Shown here: positions 6,629 to 36,654 of the stretch, one piece after another
Position numbering within the stretch: position 1 is the stretch's first letter
How the letters are laid out: the number at the start of each line of letters is the position of its first letter
Origin: an uncultured Methylobacillus sp.
GTDB lineage: Bacteria; Pseudomonadota; Gammaproteobacteria; Burkholderiales; Methylophilaceae
NCBI GenBank assembly: GCA_946478965.1
Contig: CAMLDQ010000009.1
Span: 1-42,273 of the forward strand
Direction of reading: 5' to 3'
DNA: 42,273 nt
Made by a program: the position numbers and the translations under genes
The notes under the pieces: generated by a model
Databases searched by the model: none
What the model saw: only the letters and a program-made list of their open reading frames with translations
Told to the model about the DNA's origin: nothing

Positions 6629-6640
6629 TTTGGCTCATGT

Positions 6641-15714: not shown

Positions 15715-15783
15715 GCTGGGAAAGACGCCCTTCTATATGCTGAATGAAAATAAATTATTGTATCCGCAAATCTGTCTCCACGC

Positions 15784-19071: not shown

Positions 19072-20130
19072 CTAGTACCTAACGCCATAAGCATTAGCGC
19101 TATTAATTCCTAATGACAGACGCTTCCCCAAAAGGATAAATGGTAATTCTATGTATTTGTAGCTTGCTACCGATAATGGAACACTCAATGCAATCGAGGC
19201 AATTAATATGAATATGTTGCCAGCAAATCCTTCGACGGGTGATATGCCAGCTATTACATATAAAGCTGTAAAGTGCCACAAGTAAAAGCTGTAAGAAATT
19301 TTCCCAACAAAACTGATGATTCTAGTGTCTAGAAATCCCATCGATTCCTTTGCGTAAATTGCTCCCCAGACAATAAGAGTCGCAGACAGCATAAAAACAA
19401 AATTTTTAATCTCCTTATCTGCCAGCAATGGAATTATCCAAATAGATATTGCCCCTAAGAGCGCATATATTCCGGGTCTATTTGGTTTCGACAAGTCCTT
19501 CAAATGCATTCCCAAAAAAAACGCAAAGCCATAATGCAATAGATAACCCGGCGGAACTAAGAAAACGGCGGCAATAAAGCAAATCGCCATAATTTTTTGT
19601 CCGAATCGGAAGGAGCATATTGCTAAGACTATTGGCAATAGGACCGACCATATAATTTCAATACGAAGTGTCCAAGTGACAGAATCGATTGAGGATGAGA
19701 GGCATAACAGATTTGCTGCAAGTTCTTTAAAATTTCTGGCCGGAATAAGCACGGCTTGAGCATAGGTAGTTAACCCGGGCTGGTTGGGGGCGGGAATTAT
19801 GGTTTTCAGGACATAAGTCGTTATTATGACAGTAAATAATAACGGTATCAGCCTGAATGCCCGACGAACTAAATAGGCTAAATACAGTTTTACTGTAGAT
19901 TTCGAGCCATCCAACTGAGCCGTAATAGAAAGGGTTAAAACATAACCACTAAGAACAAAAAATACAATTACCGGGCCACCGCCACTACCGATTAGCTGAA
20001 GCGTTTTATTCAACCAAGCAATGAATGATTCATTTACTTCAAAAATAGAGACGCTGTGATAAAGCGCAACACAAAGGGCCGCGAGGCCGCGCAAGCTCTC
20101 GAGGCGACTTATAAATTGTCTTTGCGACAT
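19072..20130 (-). CDS. acyltransferase 3 family membrane protein (OafA-like)
   Basis: A 352-residue integral membrane acyltransferase, expected to O-acetylate (or acylate) a glycan. The N-terminal signature RLESLRGLAALCVALYHS contains the Arg and catalytic His of the family. About ten hydrophobic segments follow (for example VIVFFVLSGYVLTLSIT and LLPIVLAICSF), and the end has the usual FYLWHF motif. No C-terminal SGNH domain is present. The DNA is visibly more AT-rich than all neighbours, and codon use shifts to A/T endings, which suggests separate acquisition. It lies 51 bases after the upstream transferase gene. Confidence 0.92.
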   Translation of the reverse strand: MSQRQFISRLESLRGLAALCVALYHSVSIFEVNESFIAWLNKTLQLIGSGGGPVIVFFVLSGYVLTLSITAQLDGSKSTVKLYLAYLVRRAFRLIPLLFTVIITTYVLKTIIPAPNQPGLTTYAQAVLIPARNFKELAANLLCLSSSIDSVTWTLRIEIIWSVLLPIVLAICSFRFGQKIMAICFIAAVFLVPPGYLLHYGFAFFLGMHLKDLSKPNRPGIYALLGAISIWIIPLLADKEIKNFVFMLSATLIVWGAIYAKESMGFLDTRIISFVGKISYSFYLWHFTALYVIAGISPVEGFAGNIFILIASIALSVPLSVASYKYIELPFILLGKRLSLGINSANAYGVRY

Positions 20131-20181
20131 AGTGCCTTACGGGAAATCAAACTAATTGCTTGTCCGTCTTATATGGCACAC

Positions 20182-21912: not shown

Positions 21913-21955
21913 GTATTGCGTGTTCCTGAGGCTCGTTCTTTGAGCAGTGCCGCAA

Positions 21956-22987
21956 TCAGCGGGAGGTCAGCATGTCTGCCGAAAGCATCTCTCCTGCAGC
22001 AATGTCCCGCTGAGCATTAAGGCCCAAAATTTTAGCGGTATGAGCAGGTGAAATCCCAGTTCCAGGACGCTGGGCAATGAGCATGCCGGCAGTAAGCCGG
22101 GCCCCGCGCGGAATGGCCACGGCGGCAGTCAGGCTCTTGCGTGCCCATTGCATCGAGCGACGTTCGTCTTCGCTCAGATACTTGGGGCCGCCGCCGCGCG
22201 CTTTTTCGATAGTGCGGATATCGTTCACGAAGCCTTTGAAATTGGCCGGGTCACATGACACCTTCCAGTCCTGCGCGTTCGGAATATCCCGGTCAATAGT
22301 GATGTGCTTCTCGATGATGTCGGCGCCAAGAGCTACCGCGGCAAGACACACGGCAGTGCCCTCGGTGTGGTCCGAATACCCGACGGGCCCCGGGAAAAAC
22401 TCGCGTATCTGGTCCATCACGCGAAGATTGATCAACTGCGGCGCAGCCGGATAGCTGGTTACGCAATGCAGAACTGCCAACTGGGTACAACCACTGTCAG
22501 CCAGAACATTGATGGCGTCCTGAATCTGCGCTATCTCGTACATTCCAGTGGAAAGGATCACCGGTTTTCCGCGCCTGCCAATATTGGCAAGAAAGGGCCA
22601 GTTTTCCAGTTCGCCGGAGCCGATCTTGAAAGCGGGAATATCCAGTTCGCCATCTAGAAAATCGAGGGCTGTTTCTTCATGCGGAGTACATAAAAAGGGA
22701 ATAGAGCGCTGGCGGCAGTAAGCCTGCATTTCGCCAATGGCCGCATCCGGCATTTCCTTACTGCGCAGACGCTCTCGCCAGTCCGGCGCGGAAGGACCCA
22801 CGAGCACATCGGTACGATAATGCTGTGTTTTATAGACGTCCGCACCTGCGTCCAAAGTCATATCTATGAGCTGGCGTGCCTTGTCCATCTGGCCAAAGTG
22901 AGAGACCCCGCCCTCAGCAATGATGTAACAAGGCTCTCCGGGGCCTATACGGCGCCCGGCAATTTCGATATGGCTGGGGAACGCCAT
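21956..22987 (-). CDS. neuB: NeuB-family nonulosonate synthase (sialic acid synthase-like)
   Basis: A 343-residue enzyme of the NeuB/SpsE family, which condenses phosphoenolpyruvate with an N-acetylated hexose to give a nine-carbon 2-keto acid. The N-terminal TIM barrel shows FLCTPHEE, FKIGSGELENWPFL, VILSTGMYE, LHCVTSYPA, GYSDHTEG and ADIIEKHITIDRD. The C-terminal SAF (antifreeze-like) domain is present (about residues 280-343, IPRGARLTAGMLIAQRPG). The first motif reads AEGGVSHFGQ in place of the usual AEIGxNHxG, and VYKTQHY in place of KFQ, so it is a divergent member. It starts one base after the sqd1-like stop. Whether the product is Neu5Ac or another nonulosonate is not settled. Confidence 0.88.
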   Translation of the reverse strand: MAFPSHIEIAGRRIGPGEPCYIIAEGGVSHFGQMDKARQLIDMTLDAGADVYKTQHYRTDVLVGPSAPDWRERLRSKEMPDAAIGEMQAYCRQRSIPFLCTPHEETALDFLDGELDIPAFKIGSGELENWPFLANIGRRGKPVILSTGMYEIAQIQDAINVLADSGCTQLAVLHCVTSYPAAPQLINLRVMDQIREFFPGPVGYSDHTEGTAVCLAAVALGADIIEKHITIDRDIPNAQDWKVSCDPANFKGFVNDIRTIEKARGGGPKYLSEDERRSMQWARKSLTAAVAIPRGARLTAGMLIAQRPGTGISPAHTAKILGLNAQRDIAAGEMLSADMLTSR

Positions 22988-22988
22988 C

Positions 22989-24146
22989 TTACTTTTGTTT
23001 CCACTTGACGTTGGGATTCAGAACGTCTGTATCGATGCGATTGCGGTGGCGCTGGGCAAACTCGATCATCTGCGCGACTACGTCATCGGAGAGAAGGTAC
23101 GGTTTGAGGCCCAGCTCAGGCAAAGCCGAATGGATTGCATGGTAATAGTGATCTTCCAGCTCGACGCGAGGGTTGCTGATGTGGTCGACGACTGGCTTAA
23201 GGCCCTGTGCTTTGGCCACGCGCTCGACGCGCTGTGCCAGATCATTAATCGAGAACTGTTCGGTAAACTGGTTGAACACGCGGAACTCACCGCGAGCAGC
23301 AGGATTCAGTAGGGCCAGCTCAACGCATTGCAGGGTATCGCGGATGTTCAGGAATCCGCGCGTCTGGCCACCTGCGCCGTAGACTGTCATGGGCGCCCCG
23401 TGCACAACCTGTGCGACAAAACGATTGAGGACGGTGCCGAACACAGCGTCGTAGTGGAAGCTCGTACCGAGATCCTCGTGCATGCGGGTTTCATCGGTGT
23501 CGGTACCGTACACCACGCCCTGGTTCAAGTCGGTGACGCGCATGCCCCAGATGCGGCAGGCAAATTCGAGGTTAGCCGAATCGTGTACTTTGGAAAGGTG
23601 ATAGAAGGACCCCGGCTTCTTGGGATAGAGCATGCGATCCTTCCGGCCCTTGTGCTCGATCTCGATCCAGCCTTCCTCGATATCGATATTAGGCGTGCCG
23701 TACTCGCCCATGGTGCCAAGCTTGACCATATGAATATCGGGGTTGATGCTCTGCATGGCGAACATCAGGTTCAGTGTTCCCACCACATTATTGCGTTGGG
23801 TATGCACACACTTGTCGCGATCGATCATGGAGAAAGGTGCGGATGGTTGCTCAGCGTAATGCACGATGGCGTCAGGTTCGAACTGCTCCAGCACCTTGTA
23901 TACAAAGCGATGATTTTCAGCGATATCGCCTATGAAAGTCTGGATCTTCTTGCCGGTCAACGATTCCCAACGTTTTACGCGCAGTTGCAAGGGGCGCACG
24001 GCGGCTAGGGGTTCAACGCCGATTTCGGCCTCCCAGTAGCGTTTGAGCATGTTGTCGACAACGCCAACTTCATGCCCCTTGTTGGACAAGTACATTGCAG
24101 TCGGCCAACCCAGATAACCGTCGCCGCCGAGAACCAGAATCTTCAT
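22989..24146 (-). CDS. UDP-sulfoquinovose synthase-like SDR (SQD1/SqdB/Agl3 family)
   Basis: A 385-residue extended SDR very close to plant SQD1 along its whole length. Shared stretches recalled from SQD1 include VKLGTMGEYGTPNIDIEEG, SFYHLSKVHDS, DLNQGVVYG, GGQTRGFLNIRDT and FRVFNQFTEQFS. The catalytic residues fall at Thr145, Tyr182 and Lys186, the same numbers as I recall for the Arabidopsis enzyme. The cofactor motif is GGDGYLG. SQD1 makes UDP-sulfoquinovose from UDP-glucose and sulfite; Agl3 does so for archaeal glycans. Here it lies one base upstream of neuB and there is no sulfolipid glycosyltransferase gene nearby, so a glycan role is likely. Residue 101 is Pro where I recall Arg in plants, so the function could differ. 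Confidence 0.88.
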   Translation of the reverse strand: MKILVLGGDGYLGWPTAMYLSNKGHEVGVVDNMLKRYWEAEIGVEPLAAVRPLQLRVKRWESLTGKKIQTFIGDIAENHRFVYKVLEQFEPDAIVHYAEQPSAPFSMIDRDKCVHTQRNNVVGTLNLMFAMQSINPDIHMVKLGTMGEYGTPNIDIEEGWIEIEHKGRKDRMLYPKKPGSFYHLSKVHDSANLEFACRIWGMRVTDLNQGVVYGTDTDETRMHEDLGTSFHYDAVFGTVLNRFVAQVVHGAPMTVYGAGGQTRGFLNIRDTLQCVELALLNPAARGEFRVFNQFTEQFSINDLAQRVERVAKAQGLKPVVDHISNPRVELEDHYYHAIHSALPELGLKPYLLSDDVVAQMIEFAQRHRNRIDTDVLNPNVKWKQK

Positions 24147-24327
24147 CGCTTGTTCCTATAAAAACATCAAATTACTGCGCCCTGCCCCGTAATCGGGTCC
24201 GAACACCGCATAAATCACTCAACGCCATCTTGGCCAATCGGCAAAGATACCCTAAATCAGACCTTAACTGAAGGCTGCTTGCTGTTCCCGGCTAAAAATA
24301 TGGCTTGGATCTCCGGACAATCGAATA

Positions 24328-24600
24328 TCACTCCCTGATACCGCTGCTCGGGAGGTATAGTGAGTCATCAGTATGAGGTTGCAGCCAGTCGGCGCGCGGA
24401 AACTTGTGATGGAAGCGATGCTCACAAGGGACGCAGATCGCAGACTCAAGGGAGGTTTCGTCGCCAGCACGCACCTCACCGATGATCTTCAGGTTTGCAT
24501 CGCTGCCACAGATTGGGCAAGGGTAACGCTCATAAATTTCTTGTCTTGGGGTTTCCGCGCCGTGGCCAGCTAGCTTGACTTGTTTGATATATAAATCCAT
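24328..24600 (-). CDS. small zinc-ribbon protein, possibly a truncated methyltransferase N-terminus
   Basis: A 90-residue protein with two CxxC pairs, Cys28/Cys31 (YPCPICGSD) and Cys56/Cys59 (AICVPCEHRFHHKFP), which should form a treble-clef or zinc-ribbon site. The spacing and the phrase after the second pair resemble the N-terminal metal-binding part of some SAM-dependent sugar methyltransferases, but the methyltransferase domain is missing. It begins 12 bases after the neuA stop, with a weak GGAAA site, and is followed by a 181-base gap before the sqd1-like gene, unusually large for this compact run. It is either a real small metal protein or the remnant of a larger gene. Confidence 0.65.
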   Translation of the reverse strand: MDLYIKQVKLAGHGAETPRQEIYERYPCPICGSDANLKIIGEVRAGDETSLESAICVPCEHRFHHKFPRADWLQPHTDDSLYLPSSGIRE

Positions 24601-24612
24601 GGTTTTTCCAGA

Positions 24613-25329
24613 TTAATTGCCCGTAAATTGTACCAGCCCGGCCCTCAAAATTGCCTCTGCTAGTATCAGATCCGATGGAACATCCAGATCGAAGTTGTAG
24701 GGCCATTTGATGGTCACGCCGACCGAAGGTTGGGCAAAGAAATCCGCTCCCGTCAATAAGGCATGTGGCTTCGTTGCCACAAGATTGCCGAAGCAAAAAT
24801 ACTTCGGCTTTAGCTGCTTATTGAAGGCTTTCTTTCTCTCCTCCGCAAACACAAAGCCCGTTCTACCATCATCGAAGAAACGTTGATTCCAAGCGTGCGC
24901 ATTGTGTGGAACCGGCGTAATAGTCTGACCTGAGTTGCAGTCGGGATCCGAAAGCATCGCATCCAGCAAGGCAATAATATGTACTGGCAGCAAAAAAGGA
25001 CTGGTCGGCTGAACCAAGGCCAGAAGGTCTGGCTCGCTCTCGTTGCGCGTAAGGAAATCGCGGGCGACATCGGCAACCGCAGCTTCATCCGTCGCCAGCA
25101 TCGGGGGACGTTGATCTACCTCGATACCAGCTTTCATGGCCACTGCGGCAATTTCGTCATCATCAGTCGAGCAAACGATGCGCTCGAAACGGCCCGAGCG
25201 CACAGCGGCATCGATGCCATATTCAATCATGGGCCGGCCGCCCAGAGGCACCAGATTCTTGCGCGGTATCGACTTTGAGCCACCGCGTGCCGGGATCAGG
25301 GCCCATGGACCCGTCTGCCGCTTGCTCAT
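24613..25329 (-). CDS. neuA: CMP-nonulosonate cytidylyltransferase (NeuA/LegF-like)
   Basis: A 238-residue nucleotidyltransferase that activates a nonulosonic acid with CTP. The signature ALIPARGGSKSIPRKNLVPLGGRPMI is the N-terminal nucleotide loop of CMP-sialate/CMP-legionaminate/CMP-Kdo synthetases. IVCSTDDDEIAAVA and LVQPTSPFL, and a C-terminal FDLDVPSDLILAE with the metal-binding Asp pair, follow the family order. The length is that of the single-domain form (LegF, PtmB, short NeuA). The ATG overlaps the stop of the hydroxyacid dehydrogenase gene (ATGA). Its partner enzymes NeuB and NeuC lie within 3 kb. Confidence 0.88.
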   Translation of the reverse strand: MSKRQTGPWALIPARGGSKSIPRKNLVPLGGRPMIEYGIDAAVRSGRFERIVCSTDDDEIAAVAMKAGIEVDQRPPMLATDEAAVADVARDFLTRNESEPDLLALVQPTSPFLLPVHIIALLDAMLSDPDCNSGQTITPVPHNAHAWNQRFFDDGRTGFVFAEERKKAFNKQLKPKYFCFGNLVATKPHALLTGADFFAQPSVGVTIKWPYNFDLDVPSDLILAEAILRAGLVQFTGN

Positions 25330-26297
25330 TCGCCTTCCTCACCGATAATGCCGAACGCCTGGCAGGCGGCCACAATAACGCGGCGCTCAGTCTCGGTCCA
25401 GGCATCCACAGTAGATCCCCCGATATGCGGGGTCAGGATCAGGTTGTCATGCTCGCGTGCGTAACGGGCCACGGGCGTGTCGGCAAAATGATCGGAAAAG
25501 TCTAAGCGATACTCGCCATCCACCGTATCGAGCGCAGCAGCCCACAGGTGTCGACTGACTAGGAGGTCGAGCAATGCATCGGTGTCCAGCAACTCGCCGC
25601 GTGCTGTATTGACCACGATGGCTTGAGCCGGCAGCGCCTCCAATATGCTACGGGAAACCAGGCCGCGCGTTTTCTCGTTGGCCACCGCATGCAGGCTAAG
25701 AACGTCGGAGCGGCGCGCTAGCTCGAGCAGATCGTGCATACGGCCGGGTGCATCGGCAACATAAGGATCGTACCAAGCGACTTGCATGCCCATGGCGGTG
25801 GCCACGGCAGCTACCTTGCGCCCCAGTCGGCCATAGCCGACGAGACCGAGGCGCAAACGCGACATCATGCGTGGAGCTCCCCAGGGGCGACGGTCCCAAC
25901 GTCCCGAGACGGCAGCGCCATGCGCGGCAGGAATACGCCGTGAGGCGGCTAGCATAAGCCCGATGGCGTGTTCGGCGGTAGGCGTGATAGTGTCCAGAAA
26001 AGCTTGCTGGTCATGCAGAGCACAGACGGCGATGCCGCGCTCGGCAGCTGCTTGCAAATCGATATGCGGAACCCCCGTCGTATTCGAGGCAATTGCCTTG
26101 AGGCGCAGGCATTTTTGCATGCGTGCCGCATCGACGCGGAAGCCCAATGGGGCAAACAGCAATTCGGCGCGCGCCAGCACTTCGTCGGAGCTGGCATCCG
26201 GATGTTCGAGTTCCAGCAGTTCAAAATGCCTTGCCAGAAGGGCCAGATTTTGCGGCTGGTACTTGAGGATTCTGTAATAGAGGGCAACTGGCTTCAT
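25326..26297 (-). CDS. D-isomer-specific 2-hydroxyacid dehydrogenase
   Basis: A 323-residue NAD-dependent dehydrogenase of the SerA/phosphoglycerate dehydrogenase type. It has the dinucleotide motif GLVGYGRLGRKVA (about residue 150) and the catalytic Arg in VVNTARGELLD. The acidic partner lies in AALDTVDGEYRLDF and the catalytic His in LTPHIGGST. No ACT or other regulatory domain follows. It is embedded between neuC (5-base gap) and neuA (ATGA overlap), so it almost certainly works in the same pathway, although standard sialic, legionaminic and pseudaminic acid routes need no such enzyme. It may supply or modify a 2-keto/2-hydroxy acid group of the sugar or of an attached acid. Substrate unknown. 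Confidence 0.88.
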   Translation of the reverse strand: MKPVALYYRILKYQPQNLALLARHFELLELEHPDASSDEVLARAELLFAPLGFRVDAARMQKCLRLKAIASNTTGVPHIDLQAAAERGIAVCALHDQQAFLDTITPTAEHAIGLMLAASRRIPAAHGAAVSGRWDRRPWGAPRMMSRLRLGLVGYGRLGRKVAAVATAMGMQVAWYDPYVADAPGRMHDLLELARRSDVLSLHAVANEKTRGLVSRSILEALPAQAIVVNTARGELLDTDALLDLLVSRHLWAAALDTVDGEYRLDFSDHFADTPVARYAREHDNLILTPHIGGSTVDAWTETERRVIVAACQAFGIIGEEGE

Positions 26298-26302
26298 GGT
26301 TC

Positions 26303-27481
26303 TCAGTATGTCATGCGCTTGATCATTAGCTGCTTGTCCAGTACCGCTTCCTTCAGTACTGTGACGATGCGTTCCCCGGCATGGCCATCGCCGTAGGGCT
26401 GGCTACAATTCTGAACCTGCTCACGAAACTCCACATTATGCAATGCGGTCTGCAACGTAGCGCGGATCGTCTCGCGCTCATGCGGTGCGTGAATCACGTT
26501 TTCGGCGTGCAGTCTCCCTTCCTGCCGGCGCCCGACATTGATGGTGGGCAGACGGAAAGTCGGGGTCTCGATAATCCCGGCGGAGCTGTTGCCGACAAAC
26601 ACCGAAGCCATGGCGAGCAGGCCCCAGAAAATTGGTGCGTCGAGATTGACGCGAACTCGGAACTGCGGACCCACGGCCAGCTCCTCGATGGCTTGAATGA
26701 TGCCGCCGTAGCCAACATCGGAGCAAGGGTGCACCACGACAGTCTGGTAGCCCAGTTCGCGCACCGGGATCAAAGTCTCTACCATCTGCTGATAGGCAGC
26801 ATCGGGCGCCGTGGTTTCGGAATGCTGCAGCACCACCACAATAGGTTTGGCAGGATCGAGATCGAGTAGGCTTGAAACCTCTTCACGACTAGCGTACTGG
26901 CCGGCGACGATGAGATCGATATGGTTATCGCCAACGACATGTACACGCCAGGGCTCCTCGCCCATACCGAGAATGCGCTCACCGCTTTCCTGCGTCGAAG
27001 GGAAGTGCAGATGCGACAGCTTGGTCACGGCATGACGCACCTGCTCGTCCACCGAGCCTGAAATGTCGCCGCCTTGCAGGTGAGCGACCGGGATGCCGAG
27101 CGAAGTCGTGGCCATGGCGGTAGCCAGTACTTCGCCGCGATCTCCGTACAATATGCAGATATCTGGGCGCAACTCGGCCAGCACGTCGCTCATCCGCGTC
27201 AGACATACACCCAGGGCGCGCGCTCTATCCACCGGCAAGTCGCCCTGTTGCTCCATGTCAACCGCAGCGGCGATCTCAAACTCCTGTTGCACCTCGGCAA
27301 TGGTATTGCCGAACTTTGCGCTGACATGCTGATCCGTCACCACCAACTGCAACTCAATGTCCGGATCATCACGCAGAAGGCGCAACATAGGCTTCATGGC
27401 GCCAAAGCCGCCCCGTTTGCCTGTAAGAACAAAGATTTTGCGTGGCCGGGCTTCGCCAGTTTGGAGTTCAGGATTGTTCAT
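26303..27481 (-). CDS. neuC: hydrolysing UDP-N-acetylhexosamine 2-epimerase (NeuC/LegG family)
   Basis: A 392-residue GT-B-fold enzyme. The family members turn UDP-GlcNAc (or a UDP-diacetamido sugar) into the free ManNAc-type sugar plus UDP. Signatures seen are KIFVLTGKRGGFGAMKPM, ILYGDRGEVLATAMA, VAHLQGGDISGSVDEQVRHAVTKLSHLHF and VFVGNSSAGIIET. These distinguish it from the non-hydrolysing WecB, also encoded in the locus. No LegB/LegC/LegH or PseB/PseC genes are visible, which favours UDP-GlcNAc as substrate. The ATG at 27481 overlaps the ABC-transporter stop by 4 bases. It is the first of the nonulosonate genes in the direction of transcription. Confidence 0.9.
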   Translation of the reverse strand: MNNPELQTGEARPRKIFVLTGKRGGFGAMKPMLRLLRDDPDIELQLVVTDQHVSAKFGNTIAEVQQEFEIAAAVDMEQQGDLPVDRARALGVCLTRMSDVLAELRPDICILYGDRGEVLATAMATTSLGIPVAHLQGGDISGSVDEQVRHAVTKLSHLHFPSTQESGERILGMGEEPWRVHVVGDNHIDLIVAGQYASREEVSSLLDLDPAKPIVVVLQHSETTAPDAAYQQMVETLIPVRELGYQTVVVHPCSDVGYGGIIQAIEELAVGPQFRVRVNLDAPIFWGLLAMASVFVGNSSAGIIETPTFRLPTINVGRRQEGRLHAENVIHAPHERETIRATLQTALHNVEFREQVQNCSQPYGDGHAGERIVTVLKEAVLDKQLMIKRMTY

Positions 27482-29262
27482 TTCTCTTCTATGTCTGAGT
27501 AGCTACAGACGCGATGCACGCGTCCATCGAGCAGTTCGACGATTTGCGTGCACTTCTTCAAAGTGGAAAGACGATGCGCAATGGTCAACACGGTCAACTC
27601 CGCGCTAAGTCCGTCAATGGCCTGCATCACCGCTTCCTCGGTTTCGGTGTCGAGCGCGCTGGTAGCCTCATCGAAGATGATTAATTTGGCTTGCTTGTAG
27701 AGTGCCCGGGCAATACCGATGCGTTGACGCTGTCCGCCGGAGAGGCGTACGCCGCGCTCGCCAACGAAGGTTTTGTACTTTTGCGGGAGTGATTCAACGA
27801 AGTCGGCGTTCTGTGCCTGTTGTGCGGCGCGGCGTACTCGTTCGCGGTCAATCTTGTCGGTTATTATGCCAAATGCAATATTTTCCTCAATCGAAGCGTC
27901 GACAAGAAAAATTGCCTGCGGTACATGCGCAATATGCTGTTGCCAAGCTCGGCTGTTGGCTGCAGTTACCGGCACGCCGTCAATTTCCAGGGTGCCCCCT
28001 GTCGGCTGCAAGAGAGCCATGACCACATCCAGCAGCGTGCTCTTGCCGCTACCGGTCGCGCCGATGAAGCCGACGCGGCTTCCCTTGTCGATGGTCAGGT
28101 CTATCCCGTCCAGCACTTGCGGCGTCGCCGGGCTGTAGCGGAAGGAAAGTCGATGGAGGCGAATCTCGCGCTCGAAAGCCAGAGGGGTTTCGTCCTTATG
28201 TCCGGCATGTTCCGGCATGGGTTGGTCGAGCAGATCCAAGGCAGCGCGCAACGAGGCCTTACCGCCGAGGATGGTGGTCCATGCAAGGTACACTTGCTGT
28301 AACAATGGCAGTAGGCGCTGCGCGCCTAGTGCAAGGGCACCGAGAATGGGAATGGCGTCGCTAACGCCGCTGGGTCGCTGCGAAAGCGTGTATGCCAGCC
28401 CCGCAATCAGCACCATGCCCAAGGCTTCCATGAAATAACGGGGACTGAAACCGATGAAAGCATTGTTGGCCTGTGCATTACGCATGGGCAAGTCGGCGGA
28501 GCGGTATTTTCGGCAATAAGTCGGCTGGGTGCCATCGATTAGCACATCGCGTATGCCGCCAAGCCCTTCCTGAAGCGCCTTAATAACTTGGCTTGATTCC
28601 TGGGCAATGCGCTGGCTGTTGGCATCTAGGCGTCTCCGTACAAGGCGAATGATAACTACGTAGATGGCGCCGAAACCACCAAAGCTTAGCAATGCAATAA
28701 CCGGATCAATCCACAGCAATACCAATAAAATGGTGAAGAGAATGATCCCGGAACCGATCAGATTCAAGCACATCAGGATGATGACGGTCACCATATCGGT
28801 ACGCTTTACGATGCTGGTAACAATCTCGCTGCTATGGCGAGCGACATGCACGGCATAGGGCTGATACAAGGTGCGCTCATACATTTCTATGCTCAAATCA
28901 GCTCCAGTCGCATAGGAGTATTTGGTGCTGGCCCAGTACATCAAAAGCCGCGAACCCGTCGCGCCAAGCGCGAAGAAAACGAACATCAGTGTCAGTGGTA
29001 ACAATAGGCCCTGAGGAGATGTAAAGCCCATTGCCTGCAGTATTGGCGCGGCCAGATGGTGTTCGAACAGCCTCTGTGGTGCCGTCAGCACTACGAGGAA
29101 GGGCAGGACCGCGCCGATGCTGAAAATTTCAGCGAAGGAAGCGAGCACCATCAAGCCAAGCAGCAGCAGAAACTGACTTCGTCTGCGCGCGCTGATATGG
29201 TGCCAGAGCAACAGCAACAGCTCAGAAATGGGCTGCGCTGACGGTACATTCGGCTGAGTCAC
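27478..29262 (-). CDS. ABC transporter, fused membrane and ATPase domains (PglK/MsbA type)
   Basis: A 594-residue half-size exporter. Residues about 20-310 contain six hydrophobic segments (for example [13 protein letters not shown] and [15 protein letters not shown]). The ATPase domain has Walker [10 protein letters not shown], signature [15 protein letters not shown], Walker [13 protein letters not shown] and H-loop TIAHRLSTL. The domain order and length match MsbA, and PglK, the flippase for lipid-linked oligosaccharides. The start is set at GTG 29262, which makes a 4-base GTGA overlap with the fcl stop; the longer frame to 29340 reads into fcl. As no Wzx is visible, it is the best candidate for moving the lipid-linked glycan across the inner membrane. 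Confidence 0.88.
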
Positions 29263-30206
29263 GCACTTGCTCCAAGGCTTTGCTGATAGGCGTGGTAGGT
29301 CTTGCGTAGCCCTTCGGTTAGCCCCGTTTGCGATCGCCATCCCAGCTTGGCAAGCCGCTCTACATTCAAGAGCTTGCGCGGTGTACCATCCGGTTTTGAT
29401 GCGTCAAATACAATCTCACCCGCAAACCCCACAGTCTGCATGATTTGCTTGGCCAGTTCGCGAATGGTCACGTCCGTACCTGTGCCGACGTTGTAGATTC
29501 CGTCAACAATGTCATCGCGTTCCATCAGAAAGATACATGCGTCGGCCATATCGTCGACATAGAGGAATTCACGCATGGGTTTGCCGGAACCCCAGACTTG
29601 TAATGATTTTTCTCCCCGCAGCTTGGCTTCATGTGCTTTGCGAAGCAACGCTGGAAGTACATGCGAATTGTTGAGGTCATAGCTGTCATTTGGGCCGTAA
29701 AGATTGGTCGGCATTACGCTGACGTAGCGGCGCCCGAACTGGCGGTTGTATGACTCGCAGAGCTTGATGCCCGCGATCTTGGCGATGGCGTAGGGCTCAT
29801 TGGTTGCCTCCAACGGGCCACTCAGTAGATATTCCTCGCGGATGGGCTGAGGGCAATCACGCGGATAGATGCAACTAGAACCCAGAAAAAGGAGGCGTTC
29901 CACGCCGGCGGTATGGGCCGCATGAATTAGATTAGCCTCGATTTGTAGATTCTGATAAATAAAGTCAGCTCGGTACAGATTGTTGGCCTGTATGCCGCCG
30001 ACCTTGGCTGCCGCAATATAGATATACGCTGGTTTTTCATTCGTTATGAAATCGCTTACAGAGCTTTGGTCCAGAAGGTCAAGCTCATGACGCGAACGAG
30101 TCAGGATATTGCTGTATCCCTTGGATTCTAGACTACGAACGATAGCAGAACCGACCATGCCGCGATGGCCCGCCACGAAAATCTTCGCCTTCTTGTCCAT
30201 GCTCAT
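29259..30206 (-). CDS. fcl: GDP-L-fucose synthase
   Basis: A 315-residue SDR that epimerises and reduces GDP-4-keto-6-deoxy-D-mannose to GDP-L-fucose. It shows the cofactor motif [13 protein letters not shown] and [12 protein letters not shown], typical of Fcl/Wca[17 protein letters not shown] and the catalytic YAIAKIAG (Tyr-x-x-x-Lys) follow, then [13 protein letters not shown]. The ATG overlaps the gmd stop (ATGA). With ManC and Gmd immediately upstream it completes the GDP-L-fucose pathway. Confidence 0.96.
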
Positions 30207-31309
30207 TCGTGGTAATCGTAGGCTGAGAAGCCGTGCTTCTTGACCAGTTCGTCACGCTCCGCGCTCTTTAGGTCTTCATGTACCATTTCTTTTACCAGCT
30301 CAGCGAAGCTTGTGCGCGGCGTCCAGCCGAGTTGCTGCTTTGCCTTGGTCGCGTCGCCAAGCAGGGTCTCGACTTCGGTGGGGCGAAAGTATTTTGGGTC
30401 GACTGCTATGATGGGGTGACCAGGTTTCAAATGCGGCAAGGGTGATTCCAAACATCCCTTTTCTTCTATCCCGCTGCCTTCCCACCGAATTTTAATTCCA
30501 AGCTCCGTTGCGGCAGCGTTGACGAAGTCGCGCACACTGTATTGAACACCAGTGGCAATAACGAAATCTTCGGGCTTCTCCTGTTGAAGCATAAGCCACT
30601 GCATTTCGACATAGTCGCGTGCATGGCCCCAGTCGCGCTTGGAATCGAGATTGCCCAAATAAAGGCAATCCTGCAGACCTAGCTTGATGCGCGACAGCGC
30701 TCGCGTAATTTTGCGCGTAACAAACGTCTCGCCCCGTATCGGGGATTCATGGTTGAACAAAATGCCGTTGCAGGCATACATGCCATAAGCTTCACGGTAA
30801 TTCACCACAATCCAGTAGCCATAAAGCTTGGCAACGGCATAAGGGCTTCTGGGATAAAAGGGTGTAGTTTCTTTTTGCGGAGTCTCCTGGACGAGACCGT
30901 AGAGTTCGGAAGTACTGGCCTGGTAGAAACGGGTTTTCTTTTCCAAGCCAAGAATACGGATGGCTTCCAGGATGCGCAGGACGCCCAGTGCATCCGAGTT
31001 GGCGGTGTATTCAGGCTCTTCAAACGAAACAGCAACATGGCTCTGGGCTGCAAGGTTATAGATTTCATCAGGCTGTATCTGTTGGATGATGCGAATGAGA
31101 GATGAGGTATCGGTCATATCGCCATGGTGGAGAAAGAAGCGGACATTTTTCTCGTGGCGGTCCTGATACAGGTGATCGATACGATCGGTATTGAAAAGCG
31201 ATGTGCGGCGCTTGAGCCCGTGAACGACATAACCCTTCTTGAGTAGAAATTCAGCCAAATAGGCTCCATCTTGGCCGGTAATTCCTGTAATCAGCGCAGT
31301 TTTACTCAT
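30203..31309 (-). CDS. gmd: GDP-mannose 4,6-dehydratase
   Basis: A 368-residue SDR that converts GDP-D-mannose into GDP-4-keto-6-deoxy-D-mannose. Features are the cofactor motif [17 protein letters not shown], the family-specific [45 protein letters not shown], and the catalytic [31 protein letters not shown] is the known Gmd signature. The gene is 11 bases after manC and overlaps fcl through ATGA. The length is standard. Confidence 0.97.
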
Positions 31310-31320
31310 TATTTATTTGC

Positions 31321-32766
31321 CTAATGTCGATTGTAGTCATCCTCGAGGCGAAGGATGTCATCCTCACCCAGATAGCTACCGGATTGCACTTCAATAATTT
31401 CTAAGGGAGTATCGCCCGGATTGGTCAACCGATGAATTTGCCCGACCGGGATATAGGTGGACTGATTTTCACCTAGCACCAGCGTCTTATCGCCGCAGGT
31501 AATTTCCGCGGTACCTTTTACGACCACCCAATGCTCCGCGCGATGATGGTGCTTTTGCAAACTCAAACTAGCTTTGGGTTTGACCTGGATACGTTTGACT
31601 TTGAAGCGAGTGCCTTCATCAACACTGTCGTACCACCCCCATGGGCGATAGACTTTTCGATGGAGTGCATGTTCTTCTCGATGACATTCGCTCAATTGCT
31701 CGACTATGGTTTTGACGTCTTGGCTACGCGACAAATTGGCCACCAGTACGGCATCAGCAGTCTCTACGACGACTAGGTTTTCCACTCCAACCAATGCAAC
31801 GAGACGGCTGCTGGCGTGGACTAAGGTGTTACGGCTGTTGCTGGTGAGCACATCGCCATTATGGGCATTGCCTAGCGTATCTTTGGGCAACACTTTCCAG
31901 ACAGCATCCCAAGCGCCCAAATCGTTCCAACCAGCATCTAGAGGCGCCATCGCGATGGGAAAGGCACTACCTGGGCATCGCTCCATCACCGCATAGTCGA
32001 TCGATTGGCTAGGTATGGCAGAAAATTCTGCTTCGCCTGGTCGAATGAATGCGTGATCGTAATCGCGTTTATCCCAGGCGAGCCGAGAGGATTCCGCGAT
32101 ATCAGGGCGAAATGTGTTGAGCGCAGCTAGCCATGTTGATGCCTTGAGGACAAAGATACCTGCATTCCAGAAGTAGTCTCCCGTATTAACATATTGCTGA
32201 GCGGTAGCGGCATCCGGTTTTTCTACGAATCGTTGTACTGCCAGTATCGATTTTTTTTTGTCAGCTTCTGCCTGAATGTAACCGTAGCCAGTTTCGGGGC
32301 GATCCGGCGCAACGCCCAAGATCACAATTTTTCCTTGCTCAGCCTCTCGAATAGCGGATTGAAGTGTCAGTGTGAAGATATCTTCATTAACGATTGTTTG
32401 GTCGGCTGGAGTAACGACCAGAATCGGATCGGAGCCGGCCTCACATGCTGCAAGCCCAGCAAGGGTAAGTGCGGGAGCGGTATTTCGAGCAACAGGCTCC
32501 AGGAGGATTTTGCTCGCCTCGATCCCGGATTCGCGCAGTTGCTCTGATGCCAGAAAGCGATGCTCATCGTTAGTGACAACGATCGGAGCAGCCACAGTAA
32601 TATCGTCGGCATTAAGCCCGGCGAGGCGCCGGGCTGCGAGTTGGAATAGGCTTTCTTCCCCGGTAAGGCAAAGAAATTGTTTCGGGAAACCAGCACGTGA
32701 AAGCGGCCAAAGCCGTGTACCGGTGCCGCCGCAGAGTATGACAGGTTGAACCGCGAGGGAACTCAT
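31321..32766 (-). CDS. manC: bifunctional mannose-1-phosphate guanylyltransferase / mannose-6-phosphate isomerase
   Basis: A 481-residue type II enzyme. The N-terminal nucleotidyltransferase begins VILCGGTGTRLWPLSRAGFPKQF, with FVEKPDAATAQQYV in the middle. The C-terminal cupin carries the isomerase (HRKVYRPWGWYDSVDEG, KHHHRAEHWVVVKGTA, PVGQIHRLTNPG). It supplies GDP-D-mannose for Gmd. The start is taken at ATG 32766 because it forms a 4-base ATGA overlap with the dehydrogenase stop; an in-frame ATG three codons upstream is the alternative. No phosphomannomutase gene is present in the window, so ManB activity must be encoded elsewhere. Confidence 0.95.
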   Translation of the reverse strand: MSSLAVQPVILCGGTGTRLWPLSRAGFPKQFLCLTGEESLFQLAARRLAGLNADDITVAAPIVVTNDEHRFLASEQLRESGIEASKILLEPVARNTAPALTLAGLAACEAGSDPILVVTPADQTIVNEDIFTLTLQSAIREAEQGKIVILGVAPDRPETGYGYIQAEADKKKSILAVQRFVEKPDAATAQQYVNTGDYFWNAGIFVLKASTWLAALNTFRPDIAESSRLAWDKRDYDHAFIRPGEAEFSAIPSQSIDYAVMERCPGSAFPIAMAPLDAGWNDLGAWDAVWKVLPKDTLGNAHNGDVLTSNSRNTLVHASSRLVALVGVENLVVVETADAVLVANLSRSQDVKTIVEQLSECHREEHALHRKVYRPWGWYDSVDEGTRFKVKRIQVKPKASLSLQKHHHRAEHWVVVKGTAEITCGDKTLVLGENQSTYIPVGQIHRLTNPGDTPLEIIEVQSGSYLGEDDILRLEDDYNRH

Positions 32767-34058
32767 AAACGCCACAGACTAACTTGCTCTTTGTGTGACC
32801 GCACAGCAGGGTAAGCAGCCTTTATGTCCATGAATACGCCGGTAGGTTTGAGCTTCGTCAATAGCTCGCTAACTGGCATGTCCAAATATTGTCGGTGCGA
32901 AACAGCTGCAATAAGTGCCTCTGCTTCCGGCAATTGCTCCCATGTGGTTAACTGGATGCCGTATTCATGTGCGGCCTCCTCCGGCTCGGCGATTGGGTCA
33001 TGAACTATCATTTCACAACCATATTCCATAAGTTCCCGGATTAGATCTGCAACTTTCGAGTTGCGTAAGTCCGGGCAGTTTTCTTTAAAGGTGAGGCCCA
33101 GAACAATTACTTTTGCGCCCTTGATATTGCTTCCAGCGCTGATCATTTGCTTGACGGTCTGCTGTGCTACGTATGCGGCCATGCTGTCGTTGATGCGCCG
33201 GCCAGCAAGAATGACTTGGGGATGATAGCCAAGCATCTCGGCTTTATGAGTGAGATAGTAAGGATCAACACCAATGCAGTGCCCGCCAACCAGACCAGGA
33301 CGGAAAGGCAGGAAATTCCACTTGGTACCAGCTGCCTGCAGGACCTCAAGTGTGTCGATACCGAGCTTGTCAAAGATGATTGCCAATTCATTCATGAGCG
33401 CGATATTGAGATCGCGCTGAGTGTTCTCGATGACTTTGGCAGCTTCTGCTACTTTGATGGAAGTCGCGCGATGAACGCCGGCGGTGATAACTGATTCATA
33501 GAGATCACCAACAATCTTGAGCGTGGCCTGATCATCCCCCGATACGACTTTTACGATTCGGGTAATCGTACGTTCCTTGTCCCCAGGATTGACTCGCTCA
33601 GGGCTATAGCCGACATGGAAGTCCTGCTTCCATTTCATGCCTGAATGTTGTTCGAGCAATGGAATGCATACATCTTCCGTCGCCCCAGGGTATACGGTGG
33701 ATTCGTACACTACGATGGCACCCTTTTTCATGTGCTTGCCAACTGCTGTGGAGGATCCAACCAGCGGCGAGAAGTCCGGAATATGCGCTTCATCGACTGG
33801 AGTAGGCACTGCGATGATGATGACATCCGCTAGGCTAATAGCCTTCGCGTCGGTGGACACAGTAAGTTTCGTAGCCGCTTTAAGCTCTTCCGTACTAACT
33901 TCGCCTGTGGGGTCACAGTAATTCCTGTAGTTGGCAATTTTGGACTCGGAGAGGTCATAGCCGATGGTGCGGTATTTCTTGCCGAATTCAACGGCCAAAG
34001 GTAGGCCGACATAGCCTAGACCAACGATTGCAACGATTGTATTTTCGGAAATCGTCAT
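32763..34058 (-). CDS. tviB: UDP-N-acetylglucosamine/UDP-hexose 6-dehydrogenase, TviB family
   Basis: A 431-residue NAD-dependent nucleotide-sugar dehydrogenase that oxidises C6 to a uronic acid. The N-terminus has VAIVGLGYVGLPLAVEFG. The middle contains KVAEAAKVIENTQRDLNIALMNE and the catalytic-cysteine loop FRPGLVGGHCIGVDPYYLTHKAE. The C-terminal domain has VIVLGLTFKENCPDLRNSK. Compared with remembered TviB of Salmonella, long stretches are identical, more so than with UDP-glucose dehydrogenases. The ATG at 34058 is two bases after the epimerase stop; an upstream in-frame ATG at 34088 would overlap that gene. With the adjacent 4-epimerase it would yield a gluco/galacto pair of UDP-hexuronic acids. 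Confidence 0.93.
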   Translation of the reverse strand: MTISENTIVAIVGLGYVGLPLAVEFGKKYRTIGYDLSESKIANYRNYCDPTGEVSTEELKAATKLTVSTDAKAISLADVIIIAVPTPVDEAHIPDFSPLVGSSTAVGKHMKKGAIVVYESTVYPGATEDVCIPLLEQHSGMKWKQDFHVGYSPERVNPGDKERTITRIVKVVSGDDQATLKIVGDLYESVITAGVHRATSIKVAEAAKVIENTQRDLNIALMNELAIIFDKLGIDTLEVLQAAGTKWNFLPFRPGLVGGHCIGVDPYYLTHKAEMLGYHPQVILAGRRINDSMAAYVAQQTVKQMISAGSNIKGAKVIVLGLTFKENCPDLRNSKVADLIRELMEYGCEMIVHDPIAEPEEAAHEYGIQLTTWEQLPEAEALIAAVSHRQYLDMPVSELLTKLKPTGVFMDIKAAYPAVRSHKEQVSLWRL

Positions 34059-34060
34059 GA

Positions 34061-35068
34061 TTACACCTTGTAATAGCTTCGATACCAAGCGACAAAGCGG
34101 GCAATACCCTCCTCAATCGCTGTCGCGGGTTTGTAGTGAAACTGTTCGACCAAGTCATCGACATCAGCATGTGTATCGGGAACGTCGCCAGGCTGCAGTG
34201 GAAGAAGATCCATATCAGCTTTCTTGCCAATTGCCTTTTCGAGAGCGGCGATGTAGTCCATCAGCTCGGTTGGGCAATTGTTGCCGATGTTATATACACG
34301 CCAAGGTGCTTTGCTGCTAGCGGGGTCCGGTTGATCGCCATTCCACTCAGGATTTGATGGCGCAGGGCGATCGAGGATGCGGATGACACCCTCGACTATG
34401 TCGTCAATGTAGGTGAAGTCGCGGCGATGCTTGCCGTAATTGAAAACCTGAATCCTCTCGCCTGCGAGGATGGCCCGGGTGAATTTGAAGAGTGCCATGT
34501 CCGGGCGACCCCAGGGGCCATAGACGGTAAAGAAACGCAAGCCCGTGGTCGGCATACCATACAGGTGACTGTAGGTGTGGGCCATCAGTTCGTTTGATTT
34601 CTTGCTGGCGGCGTAAAGGGAAAGTGGATGGTCGACATTGTCGTGCACAGAAAAGGGCATCGCAGTGTTAGCCCCATACACGCTGGAACTGCTGGCGTAG
34701 ACCAGATGATCAACATCATTGTGGCGGCATCCTTCAAGAACGTGCGCGAAACCAACGATGTTGCTATCGATATAAGCCATGGGGTTTTCAATCGAGTAGC
34801 GTACGCCTGCTTGGGCGGCAAGATTGACCACTCGTTGTGGCTTGTGGCAGGCAAAGCAATCTTCGATAGCATTGCGATCGGCGAGGTCGATGCGTAAATG
34901 GGTATAGTTTGGGTGGCTTGCGAATCGCGCTAAACGGGCTTCTTTGATGGCAGGATCATAGTAGTTGTTGTGGTTGTCGATACCTACGACCGTGTCGCCA
35001 CGTTCCAGAAGCTTTAAGGTCAGCGTTGACCCTATGAACCCGGCTGCGCCAGTAATGAGTACTTTCAT
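34061..35068 (-). CDS. UDP-glucuronate 4-epimerase-like SDR
   Basis: A 335-residue extended SDR. It starts at ATG 35068 with the cofactor motif [16 protein letters not shown]; the open frame continues to 35119 without similarity. Characteristic of the UDP-glucuronate epimerase (GAE/CapI) group are [49 protein letters not shown], the catalytic YAASKKSNE, and [21 protein letters not shown]. It probably converts UDP-GlcA or the N-acetylated product of TviB into the galacto form. It is the first sugar enzyme after the regulator gene, with a 133-base gap that holds a stem-loop. Confidence 0.92.
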
Positions 35069-35185
35069 ATCCAGTTGCTTCGATAAGAATCGGGAGTGAG
35101 CATCCTGGTTCCCAAGCACGTAAACGAAGCTGCGTGGCGATCGGCAACAATTACCTCAGCATTCGAAAGGCGCACACAAACCTTG

Positions 35186-35205
35186 GTGATAATGCCGATT
35201 ATCAC
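35186..35205 (-). terminator. 8-bp stem-loop at the end of the MarR-type regulator gene
   Basis: Perfect inverted repeat, GTGATAAT at 35186-35193 and ATTATCAC at 35198-35205, with a 4-base GCCG loop (CGGC in the minus-strand RNA). It covers the stop codon of the regulator gene and lies about 120 bases before the first sugar gene. No U-rich tract follows, so it is not a standard intrinsic terminator. It could act as a pause, processing or attenuator element. As it lies downstream of the ops site, polymerase carrying RfaH would be expected to pass it. The role is inferred. Confidence 0.4.
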
Positions 35206-35573
35206 TGAGACTTACCCTTCGCAGAATCCATCTCGCCCTTCAAAACTTTGATCTCTTGCTGCAGTGCTTCATACTCCGCCAGTTTTCGCTTTAGAAATTC
35301 CGCTGTCAGCCTCGACTTCTCAGCCATCCCGGCTGGGGTGAGTAAATACGAGTAATGTAGCTTTTTCTTGCTCCGAGTAAAATTATGTATCTTAACCCAG
35401 CCCTTTCCCACCAATGCCTGGAGACAGAAATTGATACTGCCAAGGCTAATACCCAATTCGCGAGCCAGAGCTCTCTGGCTGACCTCTGGCGTTTGATGTA
35501 GACGGCGCAACACTTCAAGCCGGATTTCCTCCTGGAAACCGGCCAGTTTCTGAATTGGGGATATGAGACTCAA
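35202..35573 (-). CDS. MarR-family EPS-associated transcriptional regulator
   Basis: A 123-residue winged-helix protein. The N-terminal part has RLEVLRRLHQTPEVSQRALARELGISLGSINFCLQALVGKGWVK read as helix, helix and recognition helix (given here as one domain, residues about 17-60). SKKKLHYSYLLTPAGMAEKSRLTAEFLKRKLAEYEAL is the family-typical wing plus a long C-terminal coiled coil. This domain arrangement is characteristic of small regulators found beside exopolysaccharide clusters. It begins with TTG at 35573, without a Shine-Dalgarno sequence, 11 bases after the ops element. The next in-frame ATG is beyond the DNA-binding domain, so the TTG start is needed. It is the first gene read by ops-loaded polymerase. 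Confidence 0.88.
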   Translation of the reverse strand: MSLISPIQKLAGFQEEIRLEVLRRLHQTPEVSQRALARELGISLGSINFCLQALVGKGWVKIHNFTRSKKKLHYSYLLTPAGMAEKSRLTAEFLKRKLAEYEALQQEIKVLKGEMDSAKGKSQ

Positions 35574-35584
35574 AGTAATCTAGG

Positions 35585-35596
35585 CACGCTACCGCC
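35585..35596 (-). promoter_or_regulatory. ops element (RfaH recruitment site)
   Basis: On the minus strand these 12 bases read GGCGGTAGCGTG, identical to the canonical E. coli operon polarity suppressor (ops) element as I know it. In enterobacteria this element in the non-template strand pauses RNA polymerase and recruits RfaH, which then suppresses Rho-dependent and polarity termination over long operons. Here it lies between an RfaH-like gene (35751-36248) and the first gene of the glycan run, in the right orientation and 11 bases before the TTG start of the MarR-type regulator. The exact match, strand and neighbour make chance very unlikely. Confidence 0.9.
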
Positions 35597-35664
35597 ATGC
35601 TGTTTCACGTTCAGCAAGCGCGGTCAAAGGGTCGGGCGGGGCGGATGATATTAAGTACGACAAG

Positions 35665-35676: not shown

Positions 35677-35750
35677 CGTTCGCTTGCCGAACATAATTGT
35701 GTCACATACTTAATACCTTTGAAAAAGTTTTTTCCAAACAGGCAGCTTTC

Positions 35751-36248
35751 TCAGTCGATCTTGCGCAAACTGGTTGGCGCCGTGTGCGCACTCACCGATT
35801 TTCCAAGTATCTCGATCAGCACCATAACCCGATGTTCGCCATTAGCCATTTGGTAGATCGCCTCGATGCCTGTAAACGGCTCTTCGATCAAGCGCACGCG
35901 CTCACCAGGCTTGAATAGTCGCTTCGGCTTGCTGTGGGCCGACTCCTCCTGTGTCCGCAACAGATCGATCAGCGCATCATCCACCCTCGCTGGCTCGATT
36001 CCGAAACTTACCAGATGGCTGACGCCTTTGGTCGAACGGATCGGTGCCCAACTCTTGGCCGAATTGCTTTGCCCTAGCCGGATGAATAGATAGCCAGGAA
36101 ACAGCGGTTCGTCAGAAACCACTATCGACCTCTGATGAAGTTTTTCCGAAGATATGGTGGGGAGGTAGCACCGATATCCCTGCCGGGCGAGATTTTCCAG
36201 AGCTCTCTTTTCTTGGCGGGGCTTGGTCTGGACGAGATACCAACTCAA
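35751..36248 (-). CDS. rfaH: RfaH/NusG-like transcription antiterminator
   Basis: A 165-residue NusG paralogue. The N-terminal NGN domain begins SWYLVQTKPRQEKRALENLARQG and continues with PLFPGYLFIRL, the RNA-polymerase binding face. The C-terminal part contains FKPGERVRLIEEPFTGIEAIYQ, the KOW-like segment; VMVLIEILGK follows, as in RfaH. E. coli RfaH starts similarly (SWYLL). The start is placed at TTG 36248, because GGAGG (36254-36258) lies 5 bases before it and the residue alignment fits; a TTG at 36260 has no such site. It should bind polymerase paused at the ops element 155 bases downstream of its stop and drive the glycan operon. It is probably expressed from its own promoter between the tRNA gene and 36248, which I cannot place. 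Confidence 0.92.
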   Translation of the reverse strand: MSWYLVQTKPRQEKRALENLARQGYRCYLPTISSEKLHQRSIVVSDEPLFPGYLFIRLGQSNSAKSWAPIRSTKGVSHLVSFGIEPARVDDALIDLLRTQEESAHSKPKRLFKPGERVRLIEEPFTGIEAIYQMANGEHRVMVLIEILGKSVSAHTAPTSLRKID

Positions 36249-36253
36249 TATCG

Positions 36254-36258
36254 CCTCC
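36254..36258 (-). promoter_or_regulatory. ribosome-binding site that decides the TTG start of rfaH
   Basis: GGAGG on the minus strand, followed by CGATA and TTG at 36248. The 5-base spacing selects this TTG over the in-frame TTG at 36260, which would itself overlap the site. Confidence 0.7.
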
Positions 36259-36423
36259 AAGGGTAATCATCAAGTAACAGCATTTTACTCTTCGGTATTG
36301 TTGTACAGGAATGAAGTCGTTCTGTTTAAGTCACACTGATTTCTCTTGTTTTGAAATCGCTAGCATTTGCAGAACTGAGGGGAGGGGGCTTAGGGAAACT
36401 GGAGTTGCATCACATAAAAATAG

Positions 36424-36499
<76 letters not shown>

Positions 36500-36654
36500 A
36501 AGTCTGCGGCCCTTGATGGGCAACAGGAGGCGGGATTATAGCAAACTCGTTGCCGCTGGCAAACTCAATTTCTTTCCGGGGCGTTTGACTCCATCCCTTG
36601 GGTAGGGTACAAACCTCAACTTTCCCGTTCATCGGATTTGTTCCGCCTCCTGAC

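Follow-up and report, generated by a model that had tools for sequence, protein, structure and literature searches.

The window analyzed here, a 42,273-nt stretch of DNA from an uncultured Methylobacillus sp., carries an rfaH gene and a marR_EPS gene ahead of a run of surface-glycan genes. In E. coli, ops is a short DNA signal that loads RfaH onto RNA polymerase, and an exact copy of it occurs here between rfaH and marR_EPS. Listed in minus-strand order, the features are:

35751..36260, minus strand: rfaH, 169 amino acids from the called TTG at 36260, with matches to TIGR01955, NF006534 and PDB entries
35696..35704, minus strand: predicted extended -10 promoter TGA-CACAAT, placed by eye just before the palindrome
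35678..35692, minus strand: palindrome GTTCGGCAAGCGAAC, a proposed MarR_EPS operator over the transcription start
35598..35616, minus strand: hairpin TGCTG-AACGTGAAA-CAGCA, with a 5-bp stem and a 9-nt loop, ending 1 nt before ops
35585..35596, minus strand: ops element GGCGGTAGCGTG, an exact match conserved in samples of MarR_EPS and RfaH loci
35202..35573, minus strand: marR_EPS, the first gene after ops, with a TTG start (TIGR04176, 147 bits against a cut-off of 88)
19072..35119, minus strand: same-strand glycan genes, likely an ops-controlled operon
17241..18059 and 18065..19042, plus strand: two interrupting genes, one epimerase-like and the other with only a sub-cut-off glycosyltransferase match
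4319..17097, minus strand: a second same-strand glycan block, whose link to ops is uncertain

The 12-mer GGCGGTAGCGTG reads from 35596 to 35585 and is the sole exact copy on either strand of the 42-kb window; with equal base use, about 0.005 exact matches would be expected by chance over that length and both strands. Looser matches carry no weight, as the nine sites with at most two mismatches compare with a mean of 4.85 in shuffled sequence, and 7 of 100 shuffles reached nine. The matched end of rfaH lies 158 nt before ops in the same orientation, and marR_EPS starts 11 nt after it. The element is on the sense strand in the leader of a long operon whose transcript is predicted. Both the exact ops on the minus strand and its position on the right strand after an RfaH-like gene had been claimed in an earlier, sequence-only reading of this DNA, and both hold, the protein passing TIGR01955. 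The leader also holds a second ops core, AGCGGTAGCAAC (35676-35665, minus strand), some 70 nt ahead of ops; its GGTAGC is not preserved in the relatives compared by eye, and it was set aside.

The homologs of rfaH and a GGAGG at 36258-36254, judged by eye, suggest that its true start is the TTG at 36248. A tRNA-Phe gene (36499..36424, minus strand) with a strong sigma-70-like promoter (11 of 12) lies directly upstream of rfaH on the same strand, gene and promoter occupying 36424-36562. A pattern scan found no terminator, and rfaH may be co-transcribed with tRNA-Phe. Before the marR_EPS start, no Shine-Dalgarno-like match was found. The genes between 19072 and 35119 encode an NDP-sugar epimerase and dehydrogenase, GMP/PMI, gmd, an fcl-like protein, an ABC transporter, NeuC, NeuB-like, cytidylyltransferase-like and SqdB-like proteins, capsule synthesis and an acyltransferase; the largest gap between marR_EPS and 19072 is 466 nt (24147-24612) and holds a 90-aa frame. 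Genes from marR_EPS to ~19 kb are likely under ops control. Because the two plus-strand genes interrupt the series at 17.2-19.0 kb, a single transcript started at ops is plausible over only ~16.5 kb (35.6 to 19.1 kb). The earlier proposal of a ~31-kb glycan run after ops holds in part: glycan genes do lie downstream, but the first gene is a regulator and the run does not keep to one strand. Antitermination of the whole locus, also proposed there, is supported only as a plausible switch down to the interruption. That reading made no mention of marR_EPS, of the hairpin of JUMPstart layout next to ops, or of the palindrome and the predicted promoter before it. Its placement of the DNA in a probable betaproteobacterium agrees with the titles of the closest loci.

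Within the glycan cluster, the segment 21956-27481 (minus strand) probably encodes a nonulosonic (sialic-type) acid pathway, as NeuC exceeds its cut-off and is accompanied by NeuB-like and PseF-like genes that fall under theirs; a UDP-sulfoquinovose-synthase-like gene alongside is also sub-cut-off (456 of 575 bits). A heparinase II/III-like protein is encoded at 9968-12304 (minus strand), and at 13579-15714 (minus strand) a single 711-aa frame combines a zinc alcohol-dehydrogenase-like part with a GFO/IDH/MocA oxidoreductase part.

Conservation of ops was assessed in two samples; the loci share ancestry, and locus counts are not independent. The first comprised 45 loci obtained by a MarR_EPS profile scan of genome contigs, with up to 300 nt upstream of the MarR_EPS start being scanned. 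An exact 12-mer was present in 20/45 (L041 at -289, the rest nearer) and a copy with one mismatch in 5/45, counting L045, which was not scorable, and L021, which has only 21 nt upstream. All of the closest relatives (L001-L016) had no or one mismatch, with ops at -23 save in L013, L014 and L015. The opposite strand of these stretches offered nothing closer than three mismatches in any scored locus. Of the 25 loci with no or one mismatch, 19 have rfaH directly upstream, cut by a contig end in three of the 19; L011 has 259 nt of contig upstream, and the element has no neighboring rfaH in L013, L015, L028, L041 and L044. The adjacency of regulator and site, remarked upon in the sequence-only reading, is thus a recurrent arrangement.

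The second sample was blind to ops, being derived from an RfaH-profile search of 399 genomes belonging to the same order as G007, which is the source of L009 and bears the title Oxalobacteraceae (the order was read as Burkholderiales). RfaH was found at E <=1e-25 in 44/399 genomes, with 47 matches, of which 30 rfaH loci were read. On the same strand, an exact 12-mer lay no more than 1.5 kb downstream in 14/30, and in none (0/30) was there one either upstream of rfaH or on the opposite strand; leaving out three loci from genomes that contributed to the model R1 described below, the downstream count was 12/27. The remaining 16/30 loci had no exact ops in the stretch read, although for L126 and L139 this was less than 400 nt downstream. 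The check that had been suggested, a search of related genomes for the 12-mer, therefore finds it conserved in both samples, the reverse of the outcome named there as refuting. Four loci carry a variant ops, TGCGGTAGCGAT or TGCGGTAGCCTG, before MarR_EPS (L017 at 7926, L023 at 7924, L036 at 2904 and L042 at 7868); in L017, L023 and L042, a 5-7 bp stem ends directly at the variant. These are possible RfaH sites of altered specificity.

The window RfaH passes NCBIfam TIGR01955 (167.2 bits, cut-off 144.5) and NF006534 (137.5 bits, cut-off 124), and its PDB matches include E. coli RfaH (2oug, 8pen, 5ond). Among the PDB matches listed, the highest TM-scores of the structural model were to RfaH in transcription complexes, 8phk (0.75) and 6c6s (0.73), which ranked second and third by E-value. 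Relative to E. coli RfaH, the ops contacts K10, R16, R23, Q24 and T72 are identical, and two are substituted (H20N and R73K); E48, I93, R138 and L142 are also kept, and F130 is tyrosine. In E. coli, changes at K10, R16, H20, T72 and R73 weaken ops pausing (PMC2871177). Twenty-two RfaHs were classed as ops-linked, including those of L017 and L034, which have variant ops. K10, Q24 and T72 were invariant in all 22; position 16 was R or K in nine, R23 was arginine in nine, position 73 was R or K in 11, and arginine occupied E. coli position 12 in 20. Contact residues do not separate ops-linked proteins from others, as seven RfaHs without ops nearby look much alike at these positions, K10, Q24 and T72 being nearly invariant there too.

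The C-terminal domain (CTD) of the window RfaH was predicted by AlphaFold2 (47 sequences) to be a beta-barrel, with CTD blocks at pLDDT 84-91 in the best of five models. The E. coli-like RfaH P0244 yielded a helical CTD at pLDDT 32-47; this is a weak control because the two alignments differ in diversity, that of P0244 having 47 rows, one present twice, all at least 77% identical. If the CTD is a beta-barrel in the free protein too, the autoinhibition step of E. coli RfaH may be missing from the window protein. A preprint links beta-type CTDs to a cis position and to loss of some ops residues (PMC13015549); here, a cis-located rfaH and ops coexist. The same preprint describes cis-located, ops-independent RfaH homologs with beta CTDs beside LPS operons, and the adjacent position and predicted CTD of the window rfaH would suit a protein that loads in cis as it is made, leaving ops as only an intrinsic leader pause for ribosome loading or RNA folding, with no role in recruitment. 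We consider this unlikely: the ops bases are strongly conserved, there are ops-MarR leaders whose genome has its RfaH match elsewhere (e.g., G010), and the ops-linked proteins retain the three invariant contacts, even if those without ops nearby very nearly do so as well.

Whether ops accompanies RfaH or MarR_EPS was addressed with R1, a covariance model that covers both the hairpin and ops and was constructed from 20 MarR-linked leaders. R1 matched 19/399 genomes at E <=0.01, 16 of them at <1e-3; the other three (E about 0.005) are near chance level and were excluded from the counts. MarR_EPS was found in 63/399 genomes at E <=1e-8, 55 of which exceeded the cut-off. Strong R1 matches occurred in 15/44 RfaH genomes vs 1/355 others; the 16 divide into 12/27 genomes with both MarR and RfaH, 0/36 with MarR only, 3/17 with RfaH only and 1/319 with neither. 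The association with RfaH has a Fisher p of 6e-6 among MarR-positive genomes and 6e-15 overall, uncorrected for kinship. Three genomes, G007, G009 and G010, supplied leaders to R1, so that their matches are built in. When they are excluded, the figures are 12/41 RfaH genomes vs 1/355 others, with 9/24, 0/36 and 3/17 for MarR plus RfaH, MarR only and RfaH only, respectively (p 9e-5 within MarR-positive genomes and 4e-12 overall, again uncorrected for kinship).

Gene order points the same way. Among loci in which MarR precedes rfaH, ops lies after rfaH in L021, L027, L105/L151, L147 and L148, and a variant ops does so in L034; in L020 and L022, a search next to rfaH found no ops. Both genes precede ops in L131 and L136. 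The split among genomes and these locus orders together indicate that the element follows RfaH better than MarR, supporting the view that the 12-mer behaves as an ops site going with RfaH. Eight genomes have ops, variant ops or hairpin-ops without an adjacent rfaH; an RfaH match was present in 7/8 at E <=1e-15, a limit at which two controls besides E. coli match as well, and in 5/8 at 1e-25 and 4/8 over the curated cut-off. The weakest of these matches, at 59.6 bits in G413, could belong to a different NusG-type protein, that of G016 is an rfaH fragment near L074, and G079 has no match at E <=1e-15 despite its hairpin-ops copy. Hairpin-ops copies also occur at a distance from MarR: L072, where the downstream gene has no Pfam match; L091 in G079, before an ABC-2 transporter gene; and L018. 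L046 has an ops copy away from MarR, at the start of an epimerase gene and with a different hairpin, and G016 has an additional leader, L074, that is preceded by rfaH. Such copies suggest that RfaH acts in trans as well as in cis. A search for the element across the class (331 genomes) returned the centre genome and five weak matches near chance level (E 0.004-0.008), and one MarR_EPS scan of viral contigs yielded none that was confirmed.

It is very unlikely that the 12-mer is instead part of a MarR_EPS binding site or codes for the MarR_EPS N-terminus. The proximity is real, ops being 11 nt before the start codon and constantly at -23 in L001-L012, and MAVACL is ops translated, with 4/21 aligned MarR_EPS proteins (records P0009, P0049, P0065 and P0116) beginning MAVACL or MAVACQ. 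However, those starts are probably misannotations that read ops as codons, and an ATG overlaps the start of ops in only 27/47 linked copies. Strong hairpin-ops matches are absent from MarR-only genomes yet present in RfaH-only ones, ops follows rfaH even where MarR is on the other side of rfaH, and the palindrome that does partly track MarR lies elsewhere. A chance match can be dismissed altogether: copies without rfaH or MarR nearby do occur among the 16 genomes scanned, but position, strand and context are conserved in both the MarR_EPS and the RfaH samples. That conservation makes ops very likely a working switch rather than a coincidence.

Aligned leaders have ~40 nt in common, near CGCGCTTGCYGAWCGTGAAACRGCAT followed by ops. 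Among 47 linked ops copies, 12 of them found through R1 itself, 36 had their best stem (at least 5 bp, offsets 0-11) end 0 or 1 nt short of ops; a stricter test retained 34/47, or 24/35 without the R1-found loci. Controls gave 4.6% in shuffled upstream sequence and 0-3/47 at shifted positions. Stems were found in 3/11 linked copies with two or three mismatches and in 3/19 exact ops copies without rfaH or MarR nearby, of which two look genuine (the E. coli JUMPstart and L018). Since 11 of the 35 have no stem (L008, L021, L027, L028, L044, L105, L109, L131, L136, L147 and L148), the hairpin as defined characterizes the close group, not ops copies at large. Stem variants include TGCTG/CAGCA, TGCTG/CGGCA, TGCCG/CGGCA, TGCCG/CGGTA and TGCCC/GGGTA, among others. 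Covariation in the stem was not significant in the 20-sequence alignment (67/500 shuffles as high) and was stronger in the 31-match R1 alignment (2/500), which itself leans to structure. The extended pairing into ops preferred by RNAalifold was not adopted. A long-range pairing of GTTCGGCAAGCG (35692) with CGCTTGCTGAAC (from 35620) is not preserved in the relatives compared and was taken as a coincidence of two elements.

The Rfam JUMPstart model (RF01707) matches an E. coli copy with 62.4 bits, as a 5-bp stem, a 9-nt loop (consensus 8), one base and ops. The window leader scored 17.4 bits, under the gathering score of 35, and the cut-off was reached in 0/399 genomes of the order; sub-cut-off matches in 33/399 were not taken as real, those of G125 and G336 overlapping counted ops copies. 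JUMPstart is listed for gammaproteobacteria (PMC2864571). The window element resembles it in layout, with a 5-bp stem, an 8-9-nt loop and 1 nt preceding ops, but its stem, loop and flanks differ in sequence. We propose that hairpin plus ops works here like a JUMPstart element of different sequence. RNA polymerase pauses at ops position U11 (PMC11001881). The base of the window stem lies 12 nt from that residue. For the his pause hairpin, the spacing is 11 nt. A pause that combines hairpin and ops is nevertheless hypothetical, since the ops-paused complex is described as biochemically distinct from hairpin-stabilized ones (PMC11001881).

The promoter was recognized by eye, and similar promoter-like sequences precede the palindrome in a number of relatives, also by eye; TGA-CACAAT was not reported by a sigma-70 pattern scan of the window. 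Upstream of MarR_EPS, GTTC-N4..8-GAAC was found in 21/26 loci with adjacent rfaH and an ops core, 10/15 with an ops core only, 9/40 with neither and 0/3 with rfaH and no ops core; shuffled versions of each stretch gave 0-6%. It is absent from three distinct rfaH-ops leaders without MarR; L126, an rfaH locus, has the palindrome with no MarR in view, the contig ending 171 nt downstream. The palindrome is thus a candidate MarR_EPS operator at the start site, and its link to MarR is partial, because 31/40 MarR loci without an ops core or adjacent rfaH show none.

We judge, with a probability of roughly 0.85, that the 12-mer functions as an ops site within a glycan-operon leader. Counting against this are the variable contact residues (H20N and R73K in the window), the predicted beta-barrel CTD, the 16/30 rfaH loci with no exact ops, L020 and L022, and the genomes whose ops has only a weak RfaH match or, in G079, none. 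On the best reading, the leader takes a first input from MarR_EPS at initiation and a second from RfaH, at ops, once elongation is under way. Transcription would start ~95 nt upstream of ops, at the extended -10 promoter with the palindrome over the start site, where MarR_EPS, the product of the operon's first gene, probably binds. The nascent RNA would form the 5-bp hairpin before ops, and polymerase would pause at ops, as E. coli and the conserved layout suggest. RfaH from the upstream gene could then read ops on the non-template strand and stay on the polymerase, which the conservation, the co-occurrence and the kept contact residues favor. By excluding NusG and Rho and aiding ribosome loading on marR_EPS, RfaH would allow the distal genes, to about 19 kb, to be made. 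Much more speculatively, beta- and gammaproteobacteria might share a composite signal, in which a hairpin 12 nt from U11, near his-type spacing, joins the ops consensus pause; read here by a cis-encoded RfaH whose tail is perhaps already a beta-barrel, it would represent an intermediate between cis-only paralogs and the trans-acting, fold-switching RfaH of E. coli.

The recurring arrangement of ops beside rfaH, with strong hairpin-ops matches in 16/399 genomes, is a natural system for the origin of ops reading and of autoinhibition, and it suggests that a JUMPstart layout can persist while its sequence changes. A hairpin-ops search is also a simple route to candidate RfaH-controlled glycan operons that the Rfam JUMPstart model does not report. 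In the open-licence literature, searched by title and abstract opening, no description of this element was found. In the excerpted text of PMC7593976, E. coli RfaH is called the only member with recruitment known in detail, and the recruitment of paralogs encoded within their target operons is called unknown. RfaH cluster CL4 of that account resembles the locus in that RfaH is associated with an HTH regulator, but no ops is described for CL4 in that excerpt; it is our guess that CL4 is the rfaH-MarR_EPS module seen here. The system shares with E. coli RfaH/ops the exact 12-mer, an RfaH equivalog, the leader of a long surface-glycan operon and a first gene with no Shine-Dalgarno-like match. It differs in that rfaH adjoins its target, in H20N and R73K, and in a CTD predicted as a beta-barrel, compared with a helical one (at low confidence) in the E. 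coli-like control. In having the regulator gene beside the long operon that it probably serves, it is like the cis-encoded NusG paralogs UpxY, TaA, LoaP and beta-RfaH. Recruitment of those proteins is called unknown or ops-independent in the portions of PMC7593976 and PMC13015549 drawn on here, whereas in this locus a conserved ops lies beside the gene.
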